Shown one piece after another: positions 5,942 to 30,193 of a DNA stretch of 35,031 bases. A program made the translations under genes and the position numbers. The stretch is from an uncultured Clostridia bacterium. Lineage in GTDB: Bacteria > Bacillota > Clostridia > Christensenellales > Borkfalkiaceae. Location: contig CAMXOH010000006.1 in NCBI GenBank assembly GCA_947245485.1, forward strand, positions 1-35,031, given 5' to 3'. The first letter of the stretch is position 1; each line of letters opens with the position of its first letter. The notes beneath the pieces were generated by a model. That model had not been told where the DNA came from. It did no database searches and saw only the letters and a list, made by a program, of their open reading frames with translations.

Positions 5942-8311
5942 CTACTCTATTATTGCAAGATTTTTCAGCGCACGGGTATAGGCGATATACTTTTCGTTAA
6001 CCGTCATATCTCCGTCGGCAACCGCAACGGCGGTAAATTCAAGTCCCTTGCTCTCGTAGACGGTCATAATATTAATTTTCGTCTTTGAAATTTTGCCCGT
6101 TTCACGAAGAACGTTGTAACTCTTCCTCGAATGTTTTTCAAACCCCGCCTCGGTGACGATAACCGCGCAAAGTCCGTTTTTGTCCGAAAGATACTTAGTG
6201 ACGGAACGCGCCGAAATTTTTTCCACTTTACAGCCGTCGAAACCTATGGGTTGCATATCTATGCCCAGCCGCTCCGAAACGAAATTGACTATTTGGTTGG
6301 TGTTGCGGTAATTCAAATTTAAATCGTAAACCTTATACCCAAGCTCCGCCCAATCGCGTATTCCGCGGTATGCGGTAATGTTCTGCTTCAAGTCGCCGAA
6401 CACGTTGAACGACGCCCTGTCGTTGATTTTACGAAGCACAGCGTACTCCTGCGGGGAAATATCCTGCGCTTCGTCCACGAACACAAAACCGTATTTGGGC
6501 GTTAGCGGAAATTCGAGTTCGGTGAGAATAAGGCAGAGCGCAAACGGGTCGGTGCGGCAAAGTTTTTTTGTAGGCATGCCGAACCTGTATTTGATTTTTT
6601 TAACCGTTTCGCGGTAGAAATAGCGCGCTATGTCGTAGGTGTTTTCGCACTTGCCGAGAGAGACAAGCTCGCCGTCGCCGCGGAGCACGTCCGCAAACTC
6701 ATAGAGCGGTATAAACGCATTGCGTATGCGCTCCACTCTCTCTATGGTGACGGAGATTTCTTTTTTGAGCTGTTCGCGCTTTTCTATTCTGTCCGCATAG
6801 GTTAAAACTTCCTGCCCGCCGTTGTTCGTCTTATAGCGCAGTAAGTCGTGTATTTCCTTCTCTACCGCCTTATAGAGAGCTTCCAAATCTTCTTTGGCGT
6901 TCAGACAGATTTTGTCCGAATAGTGCCTTAAAAACTTTATGGACTTATAAAACGAAAGGAATTGCTTGTAGAAGAACGCATAGCTTTTCATACGCTCGTC
7001 CGACATAAGCGAAATAAATTCCTTTACGTCGGTAACGCAGTTGAACGCGTTCCTGAACTGTTTTGTAAAATAGAGTCCGCCGTCGGGTTTTTCCTTTATT
7101 TCGCCGAGTACGCAACGCCTTACGCGCAGGCTCGCGTTTTTAATGAACGAATAATCGTTTTCCTGCTCGCCGCAGGCTTGTCTCACCGCTTCGGCGACTT
7201 CACTGCATCCGTCGGCTGTAAACATACCGTAAATTCCGTCGAACACTTTTGAAAGTTTCTTTCTCACGTCAGCGGTAAATTTATCCGAATAGATATAACT
7301 CAGCATTCCGTCGGGTACGTTCTGGGCAAAATCGATTTTGTCCGTCACGAACACTCCCGCATTGCGCAGTACGTTTAAAAAATAATTGTCGAGAGTGGAA
7401 GTTTTTACTTTTTCAAGTTCGAGTATCGCCGAAAGCTCGTCGATAAACGCGTTGAAAGAGTCCGACGGAGTAATTACAAGAATATCGGACGGGCGCAGGC
7501 TTTCGTTATTATAAAGGATATAGGAAAGGCGGTGAAGTAAAATCATAGTCTTACCGCTGCCCGCAACGCCCTGCAAAATAAATTCCGAGCGTTCGGGCAG
7601 GGTTATAATTTCATACTGCTTTTCCTGTATGGTTTCGATTATATCGGTAATTTCACGCTTTTCCTTTCGGCTTTCGAGAATTTCCTTTAAGAACGGGTCG
7701 AAAATAAGCGCCTCGTCCCGTCCCCCGATTTCCTCTTGCGTGAGATAATCGGCAAGCGAAAGATACTCGTTTTTCATATCGAGCACCGCGCCGTTCTTGG
7801 TGCGGAGCGCGCGGCGCAGAATCAGTTTATATTCGTAGTCGTTTATTTTAAATTCGGTCTTGCTCTTTTGGTAGTACTTTCTCGCAAGCGGTGCGCGCCA
7901 ATCGACTATTTCAAGTCCCTCGTCGCCGCGCTTGCCTATATAGTAACTGTTGTACCCTTCCGCCTTATCCTCCAAGTCCATACGCGCAAAGTACGGCTCT
8001 TCGAAAAAGGGTTTATAGGACGCAAGTTTTTCGTTTAGCGTTTTTATTACGGCGTTGAGTTCGAGAACGCGTCTGTAATTTTCCGCCGAATGCTCGTTCT
8101 CGGAATTTTTGGCGTGACGCTCGGCTTTTGCCTCGGCTATTTTGTCTTTAAGTTTATTTATATAAAGACATTTAAGCATAAGCATTACCGCCTTAATTCG
8201 GCGGTTTTCGTAATCGCGCTGACTTTCTCCGTCGAGCAGTTCGAGGAAAAAGGCTTTATCCGGCTGTTTATGCGGCTCTATTGAGATTTTAAGTTTTTCG
8301 AATTCCGTCAT
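5942..8311 (-). CDS. helD: HelD-like UvrD-family helicase (RNA polymerase recycling motor)
   Basis: 789 aa; coiled-coil-like N-terminus, GVAGSGKTMILLHRLSYIL (Walker A), FVFVDEAQDISPQEYAVLRKI, GDLKQNI, VYESKGLEFTAVAVAD and YIAYTRALKNLAIIE motifs; 'YYIGKRGDEGLEIVDWRAPLARKYY' is typical of HelD-type proteins. Confidence 0.8.
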   Translation of the reverse strand: MTEFEKLKISIEPHKQPDKAFFLELLDGESQRDYENRRIKAVMLMLKCLYINKLKDKIAEAKAERHAKNSENEHSAENYRRVLELNAVIKTLNEKLASYKPFFEEPYFARMDLEDKAEGYNSYYIGKRGDEGLEIVDWRAPLARKYYQKSKTEFKINDYEYKLILRRALRTKNGAVLDMKNEYLSLADYLTQEEIGGRDEALIFDPFLKEILESRKEKREITDIIETIQEKQYEIITLPERSEFILQGVAGSGKTMILLHRLSYILYNNESLRPSDILVITPSDSFNAFIDELSAILELEKVKTSTLDNYFLNVLRNAGVFVTDKIDFAQNVPDGMLSYIYSDKFTADVRKKLSKVFDGIYGMFTADGCSEVAEAVRQACGEQENDYSFIKNASLRVRRCVLGEIKEKPDGGLYFTKQFRNAFNCVTDVKEFISLMSDERMKSYAFFYKQFLSFYKSIKFLRHYSDKICLNAKEDLEALYKAVEKEIHDLLRYKTNNGGQEVLTYADRIEKREQLKKEISVTIERVERIRNAFIPLYEFADVLRGDGELVSLGKCENTYDIARYFYRETVKKIKYRFGMPTKKLCRTDPFALCLILTELEFPLTPKYGFVFVDEAQDISPQEYAVLRKINDRASFNVFGDLKQNITAYRGIRDWAELGYKVYDLNLNYRNTNQIVNFVSERLGIDMQPIGFDGCKVEKISARSVTKYLSDKNGLCAVIVTEAGFEKHSRKSYNVLRETGKISKTKINIMTVYESKGLEFTAVAVADGDMTVNEKYIAYTRALKNLAIIE

Positions 8312-8337
8312 ATAAATAACCTGCTTAAAGTCGAGTG

Positions 8338-8366
8338 TAACACATATTTAAGAAAAATACAACCCT
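8338..8366 (-). promoter_or_regulatory. Candidate promoter for the HelD-like gene
   Basis: Minus strand TTGTAT - 17 nt - TACACT, about 27 nt before the start codon. Confidence 0.4.
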
Positions 8367-8468
8367 TTAACCCAAATGATTTTTAACATAAGACAGTGTA
8401 AAAACCGATATATTTTATAAATTGCCAAACAAAATATGCCTTATTTAATTTTATTTTTAGGTTAATTA

Positions 8469-8497
8469 TTGACAAAAATAGATATTTCGGATATAAA
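8469..8497 (+). promoter_or_regulatory. Strong-looking sigma-A promoter on the plus strand with no annotated plus-strand gene downstream
   Basis: TTGACA (8469-8474) - 17 nt - TATAAA (8492-8497). Confidence 0.5.
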
Positions 8498-8500
8498 ACT

Positions 8501-8541
8501 AAACCAAATGGGTTTGCGGAATCCGCAAACCCATTTGGTTT
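8501..8541. repeat. 41-nt near-perfect palindrome (hairpin, terminator or operator)
   Basis: AAACCAAATGGGTTTGCGGA (8501-8520) a TCCGCAAACCCATTTGGTTT (8522-8541): 20-bp perfect inverted repeat with a 1-nt centre. Confidence 0.9.
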
Positions 8542-8569
8542 ATACCAACGAAAGAAAATGATGAGTGAA

Positions 8570-9235
8570 CTATTTTACCCTTACAATTTGCTGAACCGTA
8601 GCGAAAAACGCTTCGTCCCCCATTGCAGGTTTTTGCATATAATCGAAATATAAAATTTCCGTACCCTTTTCAATCCAACCCTGATAATTTATATACGTTT
8701 TGCTTCTGTCGCTCTCTTTCCCGTAATTGACGGTGTAATCAGTTAACTGTTCAGTAACCATTTCAACTTTAAAGTCTGCGTTGTATGTATAATTCTCATT
8801 TATGACTACAACTATTTTTAGAGAAGATTTTACGTCAATGGCTGTCGCTCTATAATATAAATCATCATTACTTTTTGTATCATAATACAAATTGATTTGC
8901 AATTCCGAAAGAACTTCGAAGTTCACGTCAAAATACGTGATATCATCCTGCATTTGCGCGACAGTCACTTCTCTGCTTGTAATATATTCGTCCTTATACA
9001 GTATTTCATCTGGTTTTCTTGTGGCGAACATACAAACCATAACCACTGCGACGGCGCACAGAACGGACGCTACGGGAGTAAACCACTGCAAAAAGCTCCT
9101 GTTTGCATAGGCGTTCCCCGCTTTCTTTTCTTCGAGGCGCGGCAACAGAGTTTCAAACAGTTCGCGCTCCTCTTTCGACAGTTCGTCATTCGGCGGACTG
9201 TCATTTTTTAACCTCATATATTTTTTAAAATTCAT
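8570..9235 (-). CDS. Single-TM membrane protein, putative anti-sigma factor
   Basis: ~50-aa charged N-terminus, TM segment (FTPVASVLCAVAVVMVCMF), ~150-aa extracytoplasmic domain; last gene of an apparent operon starting with a sigma-like gene; GAGG Shine-Dalgarno. Confidence 0.55.
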   Translation of the reverse strand: MNFKKYMRLKNDSPPNDELSKEERELFETLLPRLEEKKAGNAYANRSFLQWFTPVASVLCAVAVVMVCMFATRKPDEILYKDEYITSREVTVAQMQDDITYFDVNFEVLSELQINLYYDTKSNDDLYYRATAIDVKSSLKIVVVINENYTYNADFKVEMVTEQLTDYTVNYGKESDRSKTYINYQGWIEKGTEILYFDYMQKPAMGDEAFFATVQQIVRVK

Positions 9236-9242
9236 TATAACC

Positions 9243-10424
9243 TCAATAGATATTTACGCCGTAAGCAGAAACGACGTTGGTTCTGAAATCTATATTGAAA
9301 TAAGCCTCATCGGGGTCTCCAAACCCCGTAGCAACGTGAATAAATCTGTTATTAGGTCTGCTGCCGTCGGGCATATTATAGATTATATCTCTGTAACCGA
9401 AACCAACCATTACGTGATTGCCTGAAAAAACCAAATAATCCAAATAATCTTTATCATCGCTAAAATAAGCATCGCAAATATTGTAAGTACTTAAAAACAG
9501 TACTACGGGTTTGTTCGACTTCATACTCGATTTAACCATAGCGTAATCGAGTTTGCCCGAACTTTTAACCGAGGAGTAACTGATTCTTAACCCCTTGCGC
9601 GAACAGTACTTTTCGAGTCCCGATTTAAAACTCGATTCTGAAATGCCGTTTTCCGTGCCGCCCATATCCTCGTATAAAACTTCGATTGCTCTATATACGT
9701 ATGTATTTGCCACGCCGTAATAAAACAAATCGTCATCTTCCAATTTCCCGGCGGAATGATTGGGAATTAAATCTTCATAGTATCTGTCGAAATAACCGAT
9801 AAGATTTCCGCCCGCAACCGCCGCGCAACCGCTTGTTATGCCCGAACCGCAAAACTGTGGAAATCTTCCGCTCATTTCGTAATCGTCTTCACTATATATA
9901 GACTTAAATTCTACAACTATATTAACCTTTTCGGGAGCGGTTGAACCGCCGCCCTGATAGAGAATAGCGTTCTGTTCCAAAAGCGCGAACGCCTGTTCCG
10001 TAACCAGTTCGCCGCTGTCAATGTGGCAAAGTTTGCCGTCCGTTGCCTTAAAGTAAGACATTACGTTTGCGAATACATACTGCTCTTCCGCGTTCAAGTC
10101 CGCATAGGGACTTGTGGCTTGGGGGAGCATTTCTATTGCAACGTACTCGCCCCTGTCGCAAATTATTATAGCATAACCCGAGCCGCGCGCGGTATCGAAG
10201 TCATAGATAAATCCGAGATGTTCGAGATTAACGTCGTAAACGGGACTGCGGGTTGCTTTGAGAGTATTGCCCTCCACATCCTCGCGTTCGAGTATTCCGT
10301 TTACGGTGTCGCGGAAGCATTTATCGCATTCTTCGATATCTACGTCCGCAAAAGCGGTAATTCCGCCGAAAGCGCCTATTACAGTTGCCAAAAATATTAA
10401 AAATGTTAAAATTTTCTTTTTCAT
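9243..10424 (-). CDS. Secreted papain-fold cysteine peptidase, C10 (streptopain)/C39-like, with signal peptide and propeptide-like region
   Basis: Signal peptide MKKKILTFLIFLATVIGAFGGITAFA; ITSGCAAVAGGNLIGYFDRYY (catalytic Cys context), SGNHVMVGFGYRD (His context); 'YDFDTARGSGYAIIICDRGEYVAIEM' resembles C10 propeptides. Confidence 0.65.
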   Translation of the reverse strand: MKKKILTFLIFLATVIGAFGGITAFADVDIEECDKCFRDTVNGILEREDVEGNTLKATRSPVYDVNLEHLGFIYDFDTARGSGYAIIICDRGEYVAIEMLPQATSPYADLNAEEQYVFANVMSYFKATDGKLCHIDSGELVTEQAFALLEQNAILYQGGGSTAPEKVNIVVEFKSIYSEDDYEMSGRFPQFCGSGITSGCAAVAGGNLIGYFDRYYEDLIPNHSAGKLEDDDLFYYGVANTYVYRAIEVLYEDMGGTENGISESSFKSGLEKYCSRKGLRISYSSVKSSGKLDYAMVKSSMKSNKPVVLFLSTYNICDAYFSDDKDYLDYLVFSGNHVMVGFGYRDIIYNMPDGSRPNNRFIHVATGFGDPDEAYFNIDFRTNVVSAYGVNIY

Positions 10425-10442
10425 ATGGAACCTCTTGTTTCA

Positions 10443-10970
10443 CTATTCAGTAGATTTAAAAATTTTTTTAGCGCGGCTTTTCTTCAATCTTACATAATCC
10501 GCGCGCAAGTTAAGAATTTTTGCTATTTCAGTCAGTTTATAACCGAGAAATATATTCATATAAAGAATGTATCTTGTAAGTTTGTCAAGTTTACGCCATT
10601 TCAACTCGAACTCCAAATTAAGAAATTCTATGTTGTTCTCATATTCGGGAAAATAGGGATAATCGTCATAAAGTACCAAAGTTTGATTGTCTTTAATGTT
10701 ATACATATCGTACATAAATTTCCTCGCGCAAGAACATAGATAAGAAGTCGGACTTGTTACAAATTTCTTCGGCGGATAATCGAAATAAAATCTTGTGAAA
10801 GCGTCGTGAGGTACGTTGCTGAAAAAATTATTTCTGCCGTATTTATAAATGACGTGTTCCTTGATAATCTCCGTGCAATATTTGTAAAGTACTTCGAACA
10901 AATCTTTATCGTAACGTGCCCGCTTCAAAATAAAATTGAATTCCTTCACAGACAACTTTTTCTTTTGCAT
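10443..10970 (-). CDS. Divergent ECF-like RNA polymerase sigma factor
   Basis: 175 aa; region-2-like 'DAFTRFYFDYPPKKFVTSPTSYLCSCARKFMYDMY' and region-4-like HTH 'LDKLTRYILYMNIFLGYKLTEIAKILNLRADYVRLKKSRAKKIFK'. Confidence 0.6.
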   Translation of the reverse strand: MQKKKLSVKEFNFILKRARYDKDLFEVLYKYCTEIIKEHVIYKYGRNNFFSNVPHDAFTRFYFDYPPKKFVTSPTSYLCSCARKFMYDMYNIKDNQTLVLYDDYPYFPEYENNIEFLNLEFELKWRKLDKLTRYILYMNIFLGYKLTEIAKILNLRADYVRLKKSRAKKIFKSTE

Positions 10971-11071: not shown

Positions 11072-11287
11072 TTATTTAACCGGAAAACGCTGTTCTATAT
11101 CTTTTATGCCGCACTTATCATAGCCTGTCCACTTGCTTGTAATTTCAAGGCATTCTACAAACGCTATGATTTCACCGTCGGAAAATTGAGAATTTTCCGG
11201 ACTCGACGTCAGTTCTTCGAGACTGATTAGCAAATAACTTATCAAGTTTTTCAGTACTTTTGCACTGCTTTGTTTCTTTCCTTTCAT
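11072..11287 (-). CDS. Small conserved-looking protein of unknown function (71 aa)
   Basis: MKGKKQSSAKVLKNLISYLLISLEELTSS...FSDGEIIAFVECLEITSKWTGYDKCGI; plausible coding composition and no competing ORF. Confidence 0.5.
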   Translation of the reverse strand: MKGKKQSSAKVLKNLISYLLISLEELTSSPENSQFSDGEIIAFVECLEITSKWTGYDKCGIKDIEQRFPVK

Positions 11288-11395: not shown

Positions 11396-11412
11396 CCGAC
11401 ACATTTTGTCGG
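11396..11412. promoter_or_regulatory. Inverted repeat, candidate operator or 5'-leader hairpin
   Basis: CCGACA cattt TGTCGG perfect 6-bp arms; with one mismatch the symmetry extends into flanking A/T runs (AAAAaCCGACA...TGTCGGaTTTT). Confidence 0.5.
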
Positions 11413-11465
11413 ATTTTACAGTCATATTTATAGAATTTAAAAAAAACTTTAAAAAGAGGTACTTT

Positions 11466-11759
11466 ATGAAAAATCCGAAATCCATTGAAAAACTTATGAT
11501 GCAGGCTTCGCGGCAGGAAAGTCCCGAGCTTGAAAAAGCGTTTGAGAACGTTGTAGCCGTTTTCAGGTTTATCGACAGAAAGGAACACTCCAACCACTGC
11601 GATATACTGAACACGTTATATAATGCAAAAACCAAAAAGTTTACTTACGTCGGCGTTGCGGCGGCATTTTTTCTCAGCGACAATAAGTTAAGACGGCACA
11701 GGCGGAACTATGCGGACTGGTTCAGCTATTTTTTTGAACTGCAAACGCAAAAAAAATAA
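11466..11759 (+). CDS. Small HTH-like protein, paralogue A (97 aa)
   Basis: AAAGAGGT Shine-Dalgarno before ATG at 11466 (the ORF track start at 11406 is upstream of the best RBS); FTYVGVAAAFFLSDNKLRRHRRNYADWF resembles an HTH. Confidence 0.65.
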   Translation: MKNPKSIEKLMMQASRQESPELEKAFENVVAVFRFIDRKEHSNHCDILNTLYNAKTKKFTYVGVAAAFFLSDNKLRRHRRNYADWFSYFFELQTQKK

Positions 11760-11792: not shown

Positions 11793-12119
11793 ATGAAAAA
11801 CTTTCAAACAACAGAAGAACTTATGACTTTGGAAAAGAGACGTCAGAACCACGAGTTCGACTATGCGTTTAAATGCGTTTTAAACGTTTACAGATTTCTC
11901 GACGGCAAGAATATGACGAACCACTGCGAAATTTTGAACGCGCTTTATAACGTGGCGGAGAGAACGACTACTTACGAGGGCATTGCCTGTAAATTCAATT
12001 TAAGCGATAACGCGCTGAGGAGATACAGACGGGTTTATACCGAGTGGTTCCGTTATTATCTCGAACTCAACGCGAAAGTGCATATACAATTTTCTCTGCC
12101 GAAATTCTGCGCTATATAA
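11793..12119 (+). CDS. Small HTH-like protein, paralogue B (108 aa)
   Basis: AAGAGGTG Shine-Dalgarno; aligns without gaps to paralogue A over ~92 residues with about half identical (counted by eye), including NHC.ILN.LYN and LSDN.LRR.RR.Y..WF.Y..EL. Confidence 0.7.
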   Translation: MKNFQTTEELMTLEKRRQNHEFDYAFKCVLNVYRFLDGKNMTNHCEILNALYNVAERTTTYEGIACKFNLSDNALRRYRRVYTEWFRYYLELNAKVHIQFSLPKFCAI

Positions 12120-27366: not shown

Positions 27367-27909
27367 ATGTACGAAAATGACTGCGAAAAACTGAATAGAC
27401 TGATTATCGCCGTCGCCGACGGGTACGTCGACTGCCTTGACGGCATTTATGAAATCGCAGGCGGACGAATGCTCGCCGTTGCCGCAGGCATTGCGGGCAG
27501 GGAATATGCGGAAGACGTACTGCACGACAGCTTTATTAAAATCGCAAGGTTTGCGCATAAGTACAGGCGCGACAACCCGTACGGCTGGCTGATGAGATTA
27601 GTCAAAAATACCGCGCTCGATTTTGTGCGCTCGAGAAAGGCGCGCGCCGAAGTTTCGGACGAACTGTTTTTCAATCTCACTTCCCTCGATTACTCTCCCG
27701 AAAAGCGCGACGAGGCGCTCGAACTCGAACGGGCAATCGCACGGCTCGAACCCGATGAGAAAAAAGTTATTTACTGTAAATACTACCTCGATATGAGCGT
27801 GCGCGAAATCGCCGCCGCCAACAAGCAGAGCAAGTCCGCCGTACAGCGCGCCGTGGAAAGGGCGGAAAGAAAACTTAAAAACCTATTGGACGGCGGGACA
27901 AACGACTGA
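27367..27909 (+). CDS. ECF-family RNA polymerase sigma factor
   Basis: AEDVLHDSFIKIARFAHKYRRDNPYGWLMRLVKNTALDFVRSRK (region 2) and LEPDEKKVIYCKYYLDMSVREIAAANKQSKSAVQRAVERAERKLK (region 4). Confidence 0.9.
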   Translation: MYENDCEKLNRLIIAVADGYVDCLDGIYEIAGGRMLAVAAGIAGREYAEDVLHDSFIKIARFAHKYRRDNPYGWLMRLVKNTALDFVRSRKARAEVSDELFFNLTSLDYSPEKRDEALELERAIARLEPDEKKVIYCKYYLDMSVREIAAANKQSKSAVQRAVERAERKLKNLLDGGTND

Positions 27910-27933
27910 GAATATTCGTTATAAAGGTAAGAG

Positions 27934-28626
27934 ATGAAAGATAAAAAACTTGAAGAAAAATTCGGAGAGTATTTCAAGGGCGTGAATACTCCCGACAATA
28001 TAACGGACGACGCAAAGAAATACGCCGTCCGTAAAAGAGCGGTTCTGCCGAAAATCGTGAAGTTTGCTTCCGTTGCGGCAAGTTTCGTGCTGGTATTCAC
28101 CGCCGCGCTGATTATTATTTTGCGGGGCGGAATAACGCCGCCCGAAAAAGGCGGCGACTCCGCCGTTCCCCCTCCCGCGCTTGTAACTTACGGCAACGGC
28201 GAACTCGAATACCGCGAAGCGAACGCGTACGCGGCAAGCGATTTAGAACTTTCGCTCTATTTTATCCGCAATTTGGCGGTTGCTTCAAACGCGGGCGTAA
28301 ACGAAATGACGGCGGGTTACGGCGCGGACGGACTTGCGCTCGTTAAAGCCGACGCCTGTCTGTTCAACGGACTTTTAAGGCACGATACTAAAATCTTCGT
28401 TGAATTTACCGAAGAGAACACCGTTCACGAAGAGCTCGAAGATTACAGGCACGGCGTAGTATACGAATACCGCGGCGTAACGTACCGCTTGACGCGCACG
28501 ATTGCGGAGAACGGCGAACCCGAACAAAAGCTATACTTTTTATATCAAGGCGTCAAATATTATTTCAACGTAACTTCCGCCGACGAGTATGCCCATTTGA
28601 GATATTTGGAAATGATTGTAAAATAA
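27934..28626 (+). CDS. Single-TM membrane protein, putative anti-sigma factor
   Basis: Directly downstream of the ECF sigma gene; cytoplasmic N-terminus, TM 'FASVAASFVLVFTAALIIIL', extracytoplasmic ~160-aa domain. Confidence 0.6.
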   Translation: MKDKKLEEKFGEYFKGVNTPDNITDDAKKYAVRKRAVLPKIVKFASVAASFVLVFTAALIIILRGGITPPEKGGDSAVPPPALVTYGNGELEYREANAYAASDLELSLYFIRNLAVASNAGVNEMTAGYGADGLALVKADACLFNGLLRHDTKIFVEFTEENTVHEELEDYRHGVVYEYRGVTYRLTRTIAENGEPEQKLYFLYQGVKYYFNVTSADEYAHLRYLEMIVK

Positions 28627-28699
28627 TTTTCAAACAAGCGGGACAAATACAGTTTTAATTTCGTTTTAATATCAAATAACGAATTAAACGAGGTGAAGT

Positions 28700-30193
28700 A
28701 TGAAAAAAATCATTGCTTTGACAGCCGCGGCGGCGGCAATGTGCATAGGTCTTACGGCTTGCAATGCGGGTTACAAAGGCGAATACGGCGATGCAGGCTG
28801 GTCGGGCGGATTGGAAATCAATAACGGCGTAACCGGAGATTCAGACGACGGATACTACTATGAAAAAATAGTGGAACAACCTTTTACACAGGTTGCCGAG
28901 CAGGCTTCTTCCTACTTCTCGCTCGACAGAAATACCGCGGGATATTCCATTATGCGCTCGCAGATAGAAAACGGATATAAAATCCAACCTGATTCGGTAA
29001 GAATAGAAGAGTTTATCAACTATTTCGATTACGGTTTCGAAGATACGGACGGCGAAGTTCTGAAAATATCGACTTATATGACGGACTGCCCGTGGAACGA
29101 AGAGAACAAACTTATACTTGCGGGCGTTAAGACGCAGGAGTTCGAGCTTACGGACGTAAACGCAAACTACGTGTTTTTAATAGACGTGTCGGGTTCGATG
29201 TCGGGCGATTTAAGACTCGGACTCGCAAAAAAAGGTTTGAACTTCCTTTTGGACGGACTTACCGAAAACGACTTGGTTTCGCTCGTAACCTACGCAAGCG
29301 GAGTCAGAACGGTCCTTGACGGCGAGGAATGCACGGAAAGCGGAAAGACGAATATAAGAAATAAAATTTCCGCGCTTAAAGCAAGCGGAGCGACGAACGG
29401 CGGCGACGGACTCGAACGCGCGTATAAAATAGCGCAGGAACATTTTATAAGCGGCGGCAATAACCGCGTAATCATAATTTCCGACGGCGACTTCAACGTA
29501 GGTATGAAAAACACCGACGAACTGAAAGAGTTTATTCAAAACAAAGCTCAAAGCGGCGTTCACCTTTCCGTACTCGGCGTGGGTATGGGAAATATGCGCG
29601 ACGATTTGCTTGAAACGCTTGCAAGGTGCGGAAACGGAAATTACGCTTACCTCGACAGCGAAACCGAAGCGCGCAAAGTTTTCTGCGACGAACTGAACGG
29701 CACGCTTAAAACGGTAGCTTCCGACGCGAAAGCGTGCGTCAGCTTCACCGACAGCGTTGCAAAATACCGCCTTATAGGCTACGATACCAAGATTATTTCA
29801 AAGGACGATTTTGAAAACGCAGAAGCCGACGCAGGCGAAATAGGCAGTAACTTGTGCGTTGCGGCTCTGTACGAAGTAACGCTTGGCGGGCAACCCGACG
29901 GCGAGCTCGCGTCCGTTACAGTGAAATGCAAGGCGGACGGCGAAGCGCTTGAATTTACAGAAACGGTTACATTGCAGACTCCCTCCTCCGAAGATTTATC
30001 GTTTATTTCCTGCGTTGCGGAATTCGGTCTTATACTCAGAAATTCCGAATACAAAGAGAACGCGTCCATTGCAAACGTTTTGCAAAGACTTGAAAGTCTG
30101 AACGGATATATAAACGGCGAACTTTACAAAACAGAATTTGTAACGCTCGTCGGCAAAGCCGACGAAAGCGGATTCTATTCGGGCGAACAATAA
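28700..30193 (+). CDS. YfbK-like von Willebrand factor A domain lipoprotein
   Basis: Lipobox LTAC in MKKIIALTAAAAAMCIGLTACNAG; 'SVRIEEFINYFDY' YfbK-type N-domain; MIDAS-like 'FLIDVSGSMSGDLRLGLAKKGL'; C-terminal YfbK/DUF3520-like 'KYRLIGYDTKIISKDDFENAEADAGEIGSN'. Confidence 0.85.
   Translation: MKKIIALTAAAAAMCIGLTACNAGYKGEYGDAGWSGGLEINNGVTGDSDDGYYYEKIVEQPFTQVAEQASSYFSLDRNTAGYSIMRSQIENGYKIQPDSVRIEEFINYFDYGFEDTDGEVLKISTYMTDCPWNEENKLILAGVKTQEFELTDVNANYVFLIDVSGSMSGDLRLGLAKKGLNFLLDGLTENDLVSLVTYASGVRTVLDGEECTESGKTNIRNKISALKASGATNGGDGLERAYKIAQEHFISGGNNRVIIISDGDFNVGMKNTDELKEFIQNKAQSGVHLSVLGVGMGNMRDDLLETLARCGNGNYAYLDSETEARKVFCDELNGTLKTVASDAKACVSFTDSVAKYRLIGYDTKIISKDDFENAEADAGEIGSNLCVAALYEVTLGGQPDGELASVTVKCKADGEALEFTETVTLQTPSSEDLSFISCVAEFGLILRNSEYKENASIANVLQRLESLNGYINGELYKTEFVTLVGKADESGFYSGEQ

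Follow-up and report, generated by a model that had tools for sequence, protein, structure and literature searches.

A putative ECF sigma/anti-sigma cassette enclosing a secreted cysteine peptidase gene recurs in one order of uncultured Clostridia

Pairs of an ECF sigma factor and its anti-sigma factor are a major route of bacterial signalling and, to our knowledge, few of the extracellular proteins that set them off have been identified. The anti-sigma factor RsiV binds a secreted enzyme, lysozyme, through its outer domain, after which signal peptidase and, next, a site-2 protease cleave the anti-sigma (PMC5014341; general scheme in PMC8844934). In the SigP/RsiP system of Bacillus thuringiensis, PbpP and SipP act outside the membrane, and site-1 cleavage is followed by the action of a site-2 protease (PMC8844934). 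Anti-sigma domains have been divided into classes, including a Class II represented by CnrY, in which two helices wrap the sigma factor (PMC7406223). For a cysteine peptidase gene lying between an ECF sigma gene and that of its anti-sigma factor, we found no description in the open-access literature. The cassette described here, which the initial annotation had put forward as an undescribed signalling module, is recurrent and apparently undescribed so far.

The window analysed is a stretch of 35,031 nt, contig CAMXOH010000006.1 of assembly GCA_947245485.1, from an uncultured Clostridia bacterium (Borkfalkiaceae). Three tightly packed minus-strand ORFs are present as first annotated, encoding a divergent ECF sigma factor (P0001, 175 aa, 10443..10970), a secreted papain-like cysteine peptidase resembling Peptidase_C39_2 (P0002, 393 aa, 9243..10424) and a single-pass membrane protein that is a putative anti-sigma factor (P0003, 221 aa, 8570..9235). 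The intergenic spacing is 18 nt between P0001 and P0002 and 7 nt between P0002 and P0003, and the predicted operon ends at an intrinsic terminator (8500..8542, minus strand) with a 20-pair stem, a loop of 3 and a T-rich tail. A 71-aa protein encoded upstream of the sigma factor (11072..11287, minus strand), at most a candidate member of the cassette, has homologues at the same place in two relatives (2051-2266 in L024 and 2553-2768 in L048). Divergent from the cassette lie two paralogous small RinA-like regulators (11406-11759 and 11793-12119, plus strand), homologues of which occur in eight other fetched peptidase loci.

When the peptidase was searched against 61 genomes of the genus, 22 of them yielded 26 loci in total, among them another copy in the host genome (L002/L022). 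Regions around the loci were fetched, their ORFs called and scanned with profiles of the three families (A1, A2 and A3). Of 105 peptidase loci, 97 had enough flanking DNA on both sides and 91 of these 97 have the order sigma, peptidase, membrane protein, with the sigma gene immediately upstream and the single-TM protein directly downstream of the peptidase at a median gap of 8 nt. The co-occurrence of the three genes in relatives, on which the initial annotation had staked its proposal, is seen in the same order in these 91 loci; this order is not due to chance, and the cassette is real and recurrent. Elsewhere the order is sigma, membrane protein, peptidase (L121, L122 and L191), or the peptidase has no neighbouring sigma (L070 and L106). 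In L174 (4223-5620, minus strand), the C-terminal part of the peptidase, including the catalytic His, is swapped for a different, YiiX/NlpC-looking domain, and no recognisable membrane protein adjoins it. Fusions of peptidase and membrane protein were absent from the 20 loci scanned for them. The peptidase was found in 51 of 251 sampled genomes of the family and 69 of 347 of the order, the rest of the phylum giving faint matches only; by these searches, the cassette appears confined to one bacterial order of uncultured Clostridia, where it is patchily distributed over about a hundred places. A peptidase gene with an invariant putative active site sits between sigma and putative anti-sigma genes across a whole order.

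Directly upstream of the sigma gene, 29 of 90 cassettes carry an XRE-type HTH gene (for example, L022:2381-2719), which is probably a fourth gene of many of them. As an obligatory fourth gene it was rejected, being limited to those 29 and missing from the window copy. Distant peptidase homologues of 400-460 aa, with a pro-region, occur at four loci (L086, L087, L192 and L193), and the next gene at each encodes a small protein that has a TM helix at its N-terminus; no sigma gene was seen in their fetched flanks, and the arrangement is possibly the ancestral setting.

The sigma factor is recognised best through its relatives. Alone, P0001 stays under the curated cut-offs of two sigma models, matching PF08281 (region 4) at E 4e-4 and TIGR02937 at E 6e-4 (for TIGR02937, 19.4 against 42.9 bits, a cut-off that is more an annotation threshold than a biological feature); region 4 is the only sigma region seen by Pfam, region 2 going undetected. 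Its relatives reach much lower E-values with the Pfam sigma models, region 4 being matched in all 23 members of the family and region 2 in 21 of them. A profile of the 23 relatives matches SigW (5wuq), the best among the ECF sigma structures matched, with an E-value of 1e-26 and an alignment over both sigma regions, which the alignment of P0001 to its relatives still covers. The family profile thereby gives the composition of an ECF sigma factor (regions 2 and 4 only, in 160-200 aa), and, judged together with its relatives, the assignment of P0001 by sequence as an ECF sigma factor, divergent enough for curated models to miss, is certain. The initial annotation had proposed such a divergent ECF-like sigma and had set the absence of a sigma fold against itself; the profile points to the contrary, and the warning that automatic annotation might miss the gene is borne out by the curated cut-offs and by the branch length. 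The terminal branch of P0001 measures 1.44 against a median of 0.58 and is the second longest of 92 sigmas, unlike the ordinary terminal branches of the peptidase and membrane protein of the window. P0001 would be either fast-evolving or starting to decay.

P0002 begins with a predicted Sec signal peptide (residues 1-27, 10344..10424), read by eye as KKK, a hydrophobic core and AFA|D, with a helix at 2-19 in the AF2 model. A propeptide-like region follows (about residues 28-165, 9930..10343), comprising some 130 residues of mixed alpha/beta structure in the model, so that both features of the initial annotation are recovered. This region belongs to part of the family only: it is present in the window clade and some other members and missing from relatives of 270-300 aa. 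The putative catalytic residues Cys200 (codon 9825..9827) and His337 (codon 9414..9416) are invariant in 105 of 105 peptidase relatives, many of them less than 30% identical to P0002, as are G260, G269 and G343. Peptidase_C39_2 (PF13529) matches P0002 alone at 15.2 bits, against a gathering cut-off of 24, and weakly matches 17 of 25 relatives (best E 6.5e-5). A profile–profile alignment to C39_2 proteins, whose template set contained some wrong reading frames, aligns each of the two catalytic residues, Cys and His, with its counterpart (prob 93%, a score to be taken as a guide only). Conservation does not extend to the acid or Asn that is the third catalytic residue in the C39 type, positions 365/366 being mostly A/S and S/T. 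The AF2 model (pLDDT 85) bears a loose likeness only to solved structures, with 22oc ('P210 CD lyase') as the best PDB match at E 4e-3 and AvrPphB at prob 0.35, and is broadly papain-like only; the PDB sequence search with the peptidase profile gave no credible match. Of the C10/C39-like identity proposed in the initial annotation, a distant relationship to C39_2 is supported and C10 membership is rejected, streptopain-type Peptidase_C10 (PF01640) having no match in 25 family members and almost none across the sampled phylum. We assign P0002 as a secreted papain-like peptidase, by sequence a distant relative of Peptidase_C39_2, and predict that it has peptidase activity. Its papain-like layout and aligned Cys and His are those of that family, whereas its score below the curated cut-off, its lack of a conserved third residue and the conserved positions of its own family (D213, G260, G269 and G343) set it apart.

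For P0003, the predicted topology agrees with that first proposed, with one TM helix (residues 46-72, 9020..9100, from the AF2 model and ORF calls; a narrower estimate places it near residues 52-70) separating a cytoplasmic N-terminal segment (residues 1-45, 9101..9235), the proposed sigma-binding part, from an outer domain (8573..9019). Among relatives the average start of the helix is close to residue 54, and an excess of K+R lies on its N-side in 94 as against 2 without (4.4 on the N-side, 1.4 on the C-side), which by the positive-inside rule places the N-terminus inside. The AF2 model (pLDDT 87) is confident in the outer domain, mostly above 90, and less so in two N-terminal helices (3-12 and 21-42). 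The outer domain is beta-rich and, by Foldseek, neighbours Tsi3, BT_1490, LpqN, MTC28, PsbP and EagT6 at E-values of 3e-3 to 7e-2; the label weakly Mog1/PsbP-like is a reading of this neighbour list. The Pfam scan of P0003 alone gave no relevant match, and NCBIfam did no better across all three proteins. Among 22 membrane-protein members, no Pfam anti-sigma domain model matched, the Pfam scan assigned the outer domain to no known family, and a PDB sequence search with the membrane-protein profile found no credible match. The four-helix HMM domain, with or without a zinc motif, that marks a Class I anti-sigma (ASDI) is likewise absent, the model giving two helices. What P0003 has in common with membrane anti-sigmas is a gene adjoining that of a sigma factor, with the peptidase present or absent, and a single TM helix with the N-terminus inside. 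It is probably an anti-sigma factor, which would bind and hold the sigma through its cytoplasmic N-terminus. This anti-sigma-like family and the divergent sigmas alike escape curated models (Pfam, NCBIfam).

That the sigma factor has its partner in the membrane protein, with the peptidase separable, is supported chiefly by the occurrence of the pair without the peptidase. In six of the loci fetched from genomes lacking the peptidase (L147 and L149-L153), homologues of the membrane protein adjoin a sigma matched by the same profile; in a seventh peptidase-free locus, L148, no sigma was seen. Lipoproteins adjoin the pair in L147 and L150-L152, and in L147 the gene between those of the sigma and the membrane protein encodes a small lipoprotein instead of a peptidase. 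The host genome itself holds a peptidase-free pair at a second locus (L022, 6171-6878 and 6938-7444), beside an LRR protein. A second cassette in the window (27367-30193, plus strand) consists of a canonical ECF sigma (27367-27909, 180 aa) followed by a single-TM protein that is a distant homologue of P0003 (E 1e-3), with a vWA/YfbK-type secreted protein alongside. By these comparisons, sigma and membrane protein form a separable core pair, to which the peptidase is a third component that can be absent. Neither this nor the lack of the propeptide-like region in many relatives was visible in the window sequence alone. On the contig of the second cassette of the host genome, a duplicated two-gene unit (L022:3006-4131 and 7675-8795), encoding a protein of about 210 aa and a partner of 160-180 aa, flanks the sigma/membrane-protein/LRR genes.

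Housekeeping-type promoters precede many of the cassettes: upstream of 94 of them, at least 10 of 12 matches were found in 50 (10.8 expected) and at least 11 of 12 in 23 (0.9 expected), the cassette of the window having a 9-of-12 match only. The usual ECF motif, AAC-N-CGT, is not enriched upstream of the cassettes, and may not be these sigmas' own motif; the cassette may be autoregulated by its sigma. Because of the housekeeping-type promoters and the lack of ECF-motif enrichment, expression of the peptidase alongside the anti-sigma factor probably precedes sigma activity, and the peptidase is probably produced jointly with the anti-sigma rather than only as the output of the sigma, which favours a role on the signal side. 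Between such a promoter and the sigma start, L024 (1923-2040, minus strand) and also L048 have two strong adjacent hairpins, the L024 pair having a z of -7.6 and no Rfam match; tRNAs were the only RNA families found near the cassette. The trees of the three proteins correlate pairwise at 0.71-0.78. Controlling for the membrane protein lowers the correlation of sigma and peptidase to 0.28, while those of the membrane protein stay higher (0.54 with the sigma and 0.46 with the peptidase). The tree comparison thus also points to a signal-side role, within the limit that such correlations can arise from co-inheritance alone; treating the N-terminal and outer parts separately did not yield a clear picture.

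Our preferred reading, to which we give about an even chance, is an ECF sigma/anti-sigma cassette with a built-in secreted cysteine peptidase that acts on the signal side and is not purely an output. The anti-sigma factor would tether the sigma at the membrane by its short cytoplasmic N-terminus and sense the exterior with its outer domain, and the peptidase, made with the anti-sigma and secreted, would most likely work at the same outer face. Once activated, it would attach to the outer domain of P0003 or cleave it, and intramembrane proteolysis would then complete the destruction of the anti-sigma and free the sigma; a gene for a site-2 type protease (Peptidase_M50) is present in the genome. 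The narrower claim, that the peptidase is dedicated to the adjoining anti-sigma as its extracellular ligand or its site-1 protease, is made tentatively, as something that may well not hold; if true, the cassette would form a self-contained unit of proteolytic signalling, with a cysteine peptidase as the gate to an ECF sigma. The same pair could, however, control the peptidase as its regulated output, namely a secreted peptidase of the nutrient or surface type whose gene travels with its regulator, as might be expected from the other secreted proteins adjoining peptidase-free pairs (lipoproteins, LRR and vWA proteins) and from the three loci in which the peptidase follows the membrane protein, the usual output position. 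This is a serious possibility to which we give somewhat less than an even chance, given the housekeeping-type promoters in place of an enriched ECF-type motif upstream of the operon, the fact that 91 of 97 loci have the peptidase sandwiched and close to the anti-sigma gene, and its correlation with the membrane protein beyond that with the sigma. Of the roles suggested in the initial annotation, processing of the outer domain, being processed itself and being the output may each apply to the peptidase. Whether the peptidase is trigger or output is directly testable by one active-site mutant.

Two further readings concern the membrane protein and the window copy. Tsi3 neutralises a secreted muramidase, and its presence with EagT6 among the fold neighbours of the outer domain, together with the median of 8 nt between the two genes, could suggest that the membrane protein confers immunity to, or inhibits, a toxic secreted peptidase, the sigma merely adjusting expression. 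That is very improbable, as the fold matches are weak (E above 1e-3) and homologues of the membrane protein accompany sigmas where the peptidase is absent. It is also unlikely, if less so, that the window copy is decaying, its sigma having lost core-binding region 2 and the cassette being non-functional here and functional elsewhere: the undetected region 2 and the long branch of the sigma, beside an ordinary peptidase and membrane protein, fit this account, but the three frames are intact, the layout is operon-like and ends in a terminator, and the alignment of P0001 extends over both sigma regions.

Set against described systems, the proposed signal-side cassette resembles SigP/RsiP by analogy, in that an extra-membrane protein would be needed for site-1 cleavage of the anti-sigma; there, however, the sensor is a penicillin-binding protein and the cutter a signal peptidase, with no cysteine peptidase. 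P0003 can be likened to Class II CnrY, on its modelled helices alone, in its short cytoplasmic part with two predicted helices. The nearest working analogue is SigV/RsiV of Bacillus subtilis (PMC5014341, PMC4183432), which likewise combines an ECF sigma and a membrane anti-sigma, a combination read here from genes alone, and whose binding of a secreted enzyme by the outer domain and stepwise proteolytic release are what we propose by analogy. Unlike SigV/RsiV, the present cassette has no known anti-sigma domain and no known outer-domain family in the Pfam scan, and whereas lysozyme reaches RsiV from outside, here the gene for the peptidase lies between those of the sigma and anti-sigma factors.
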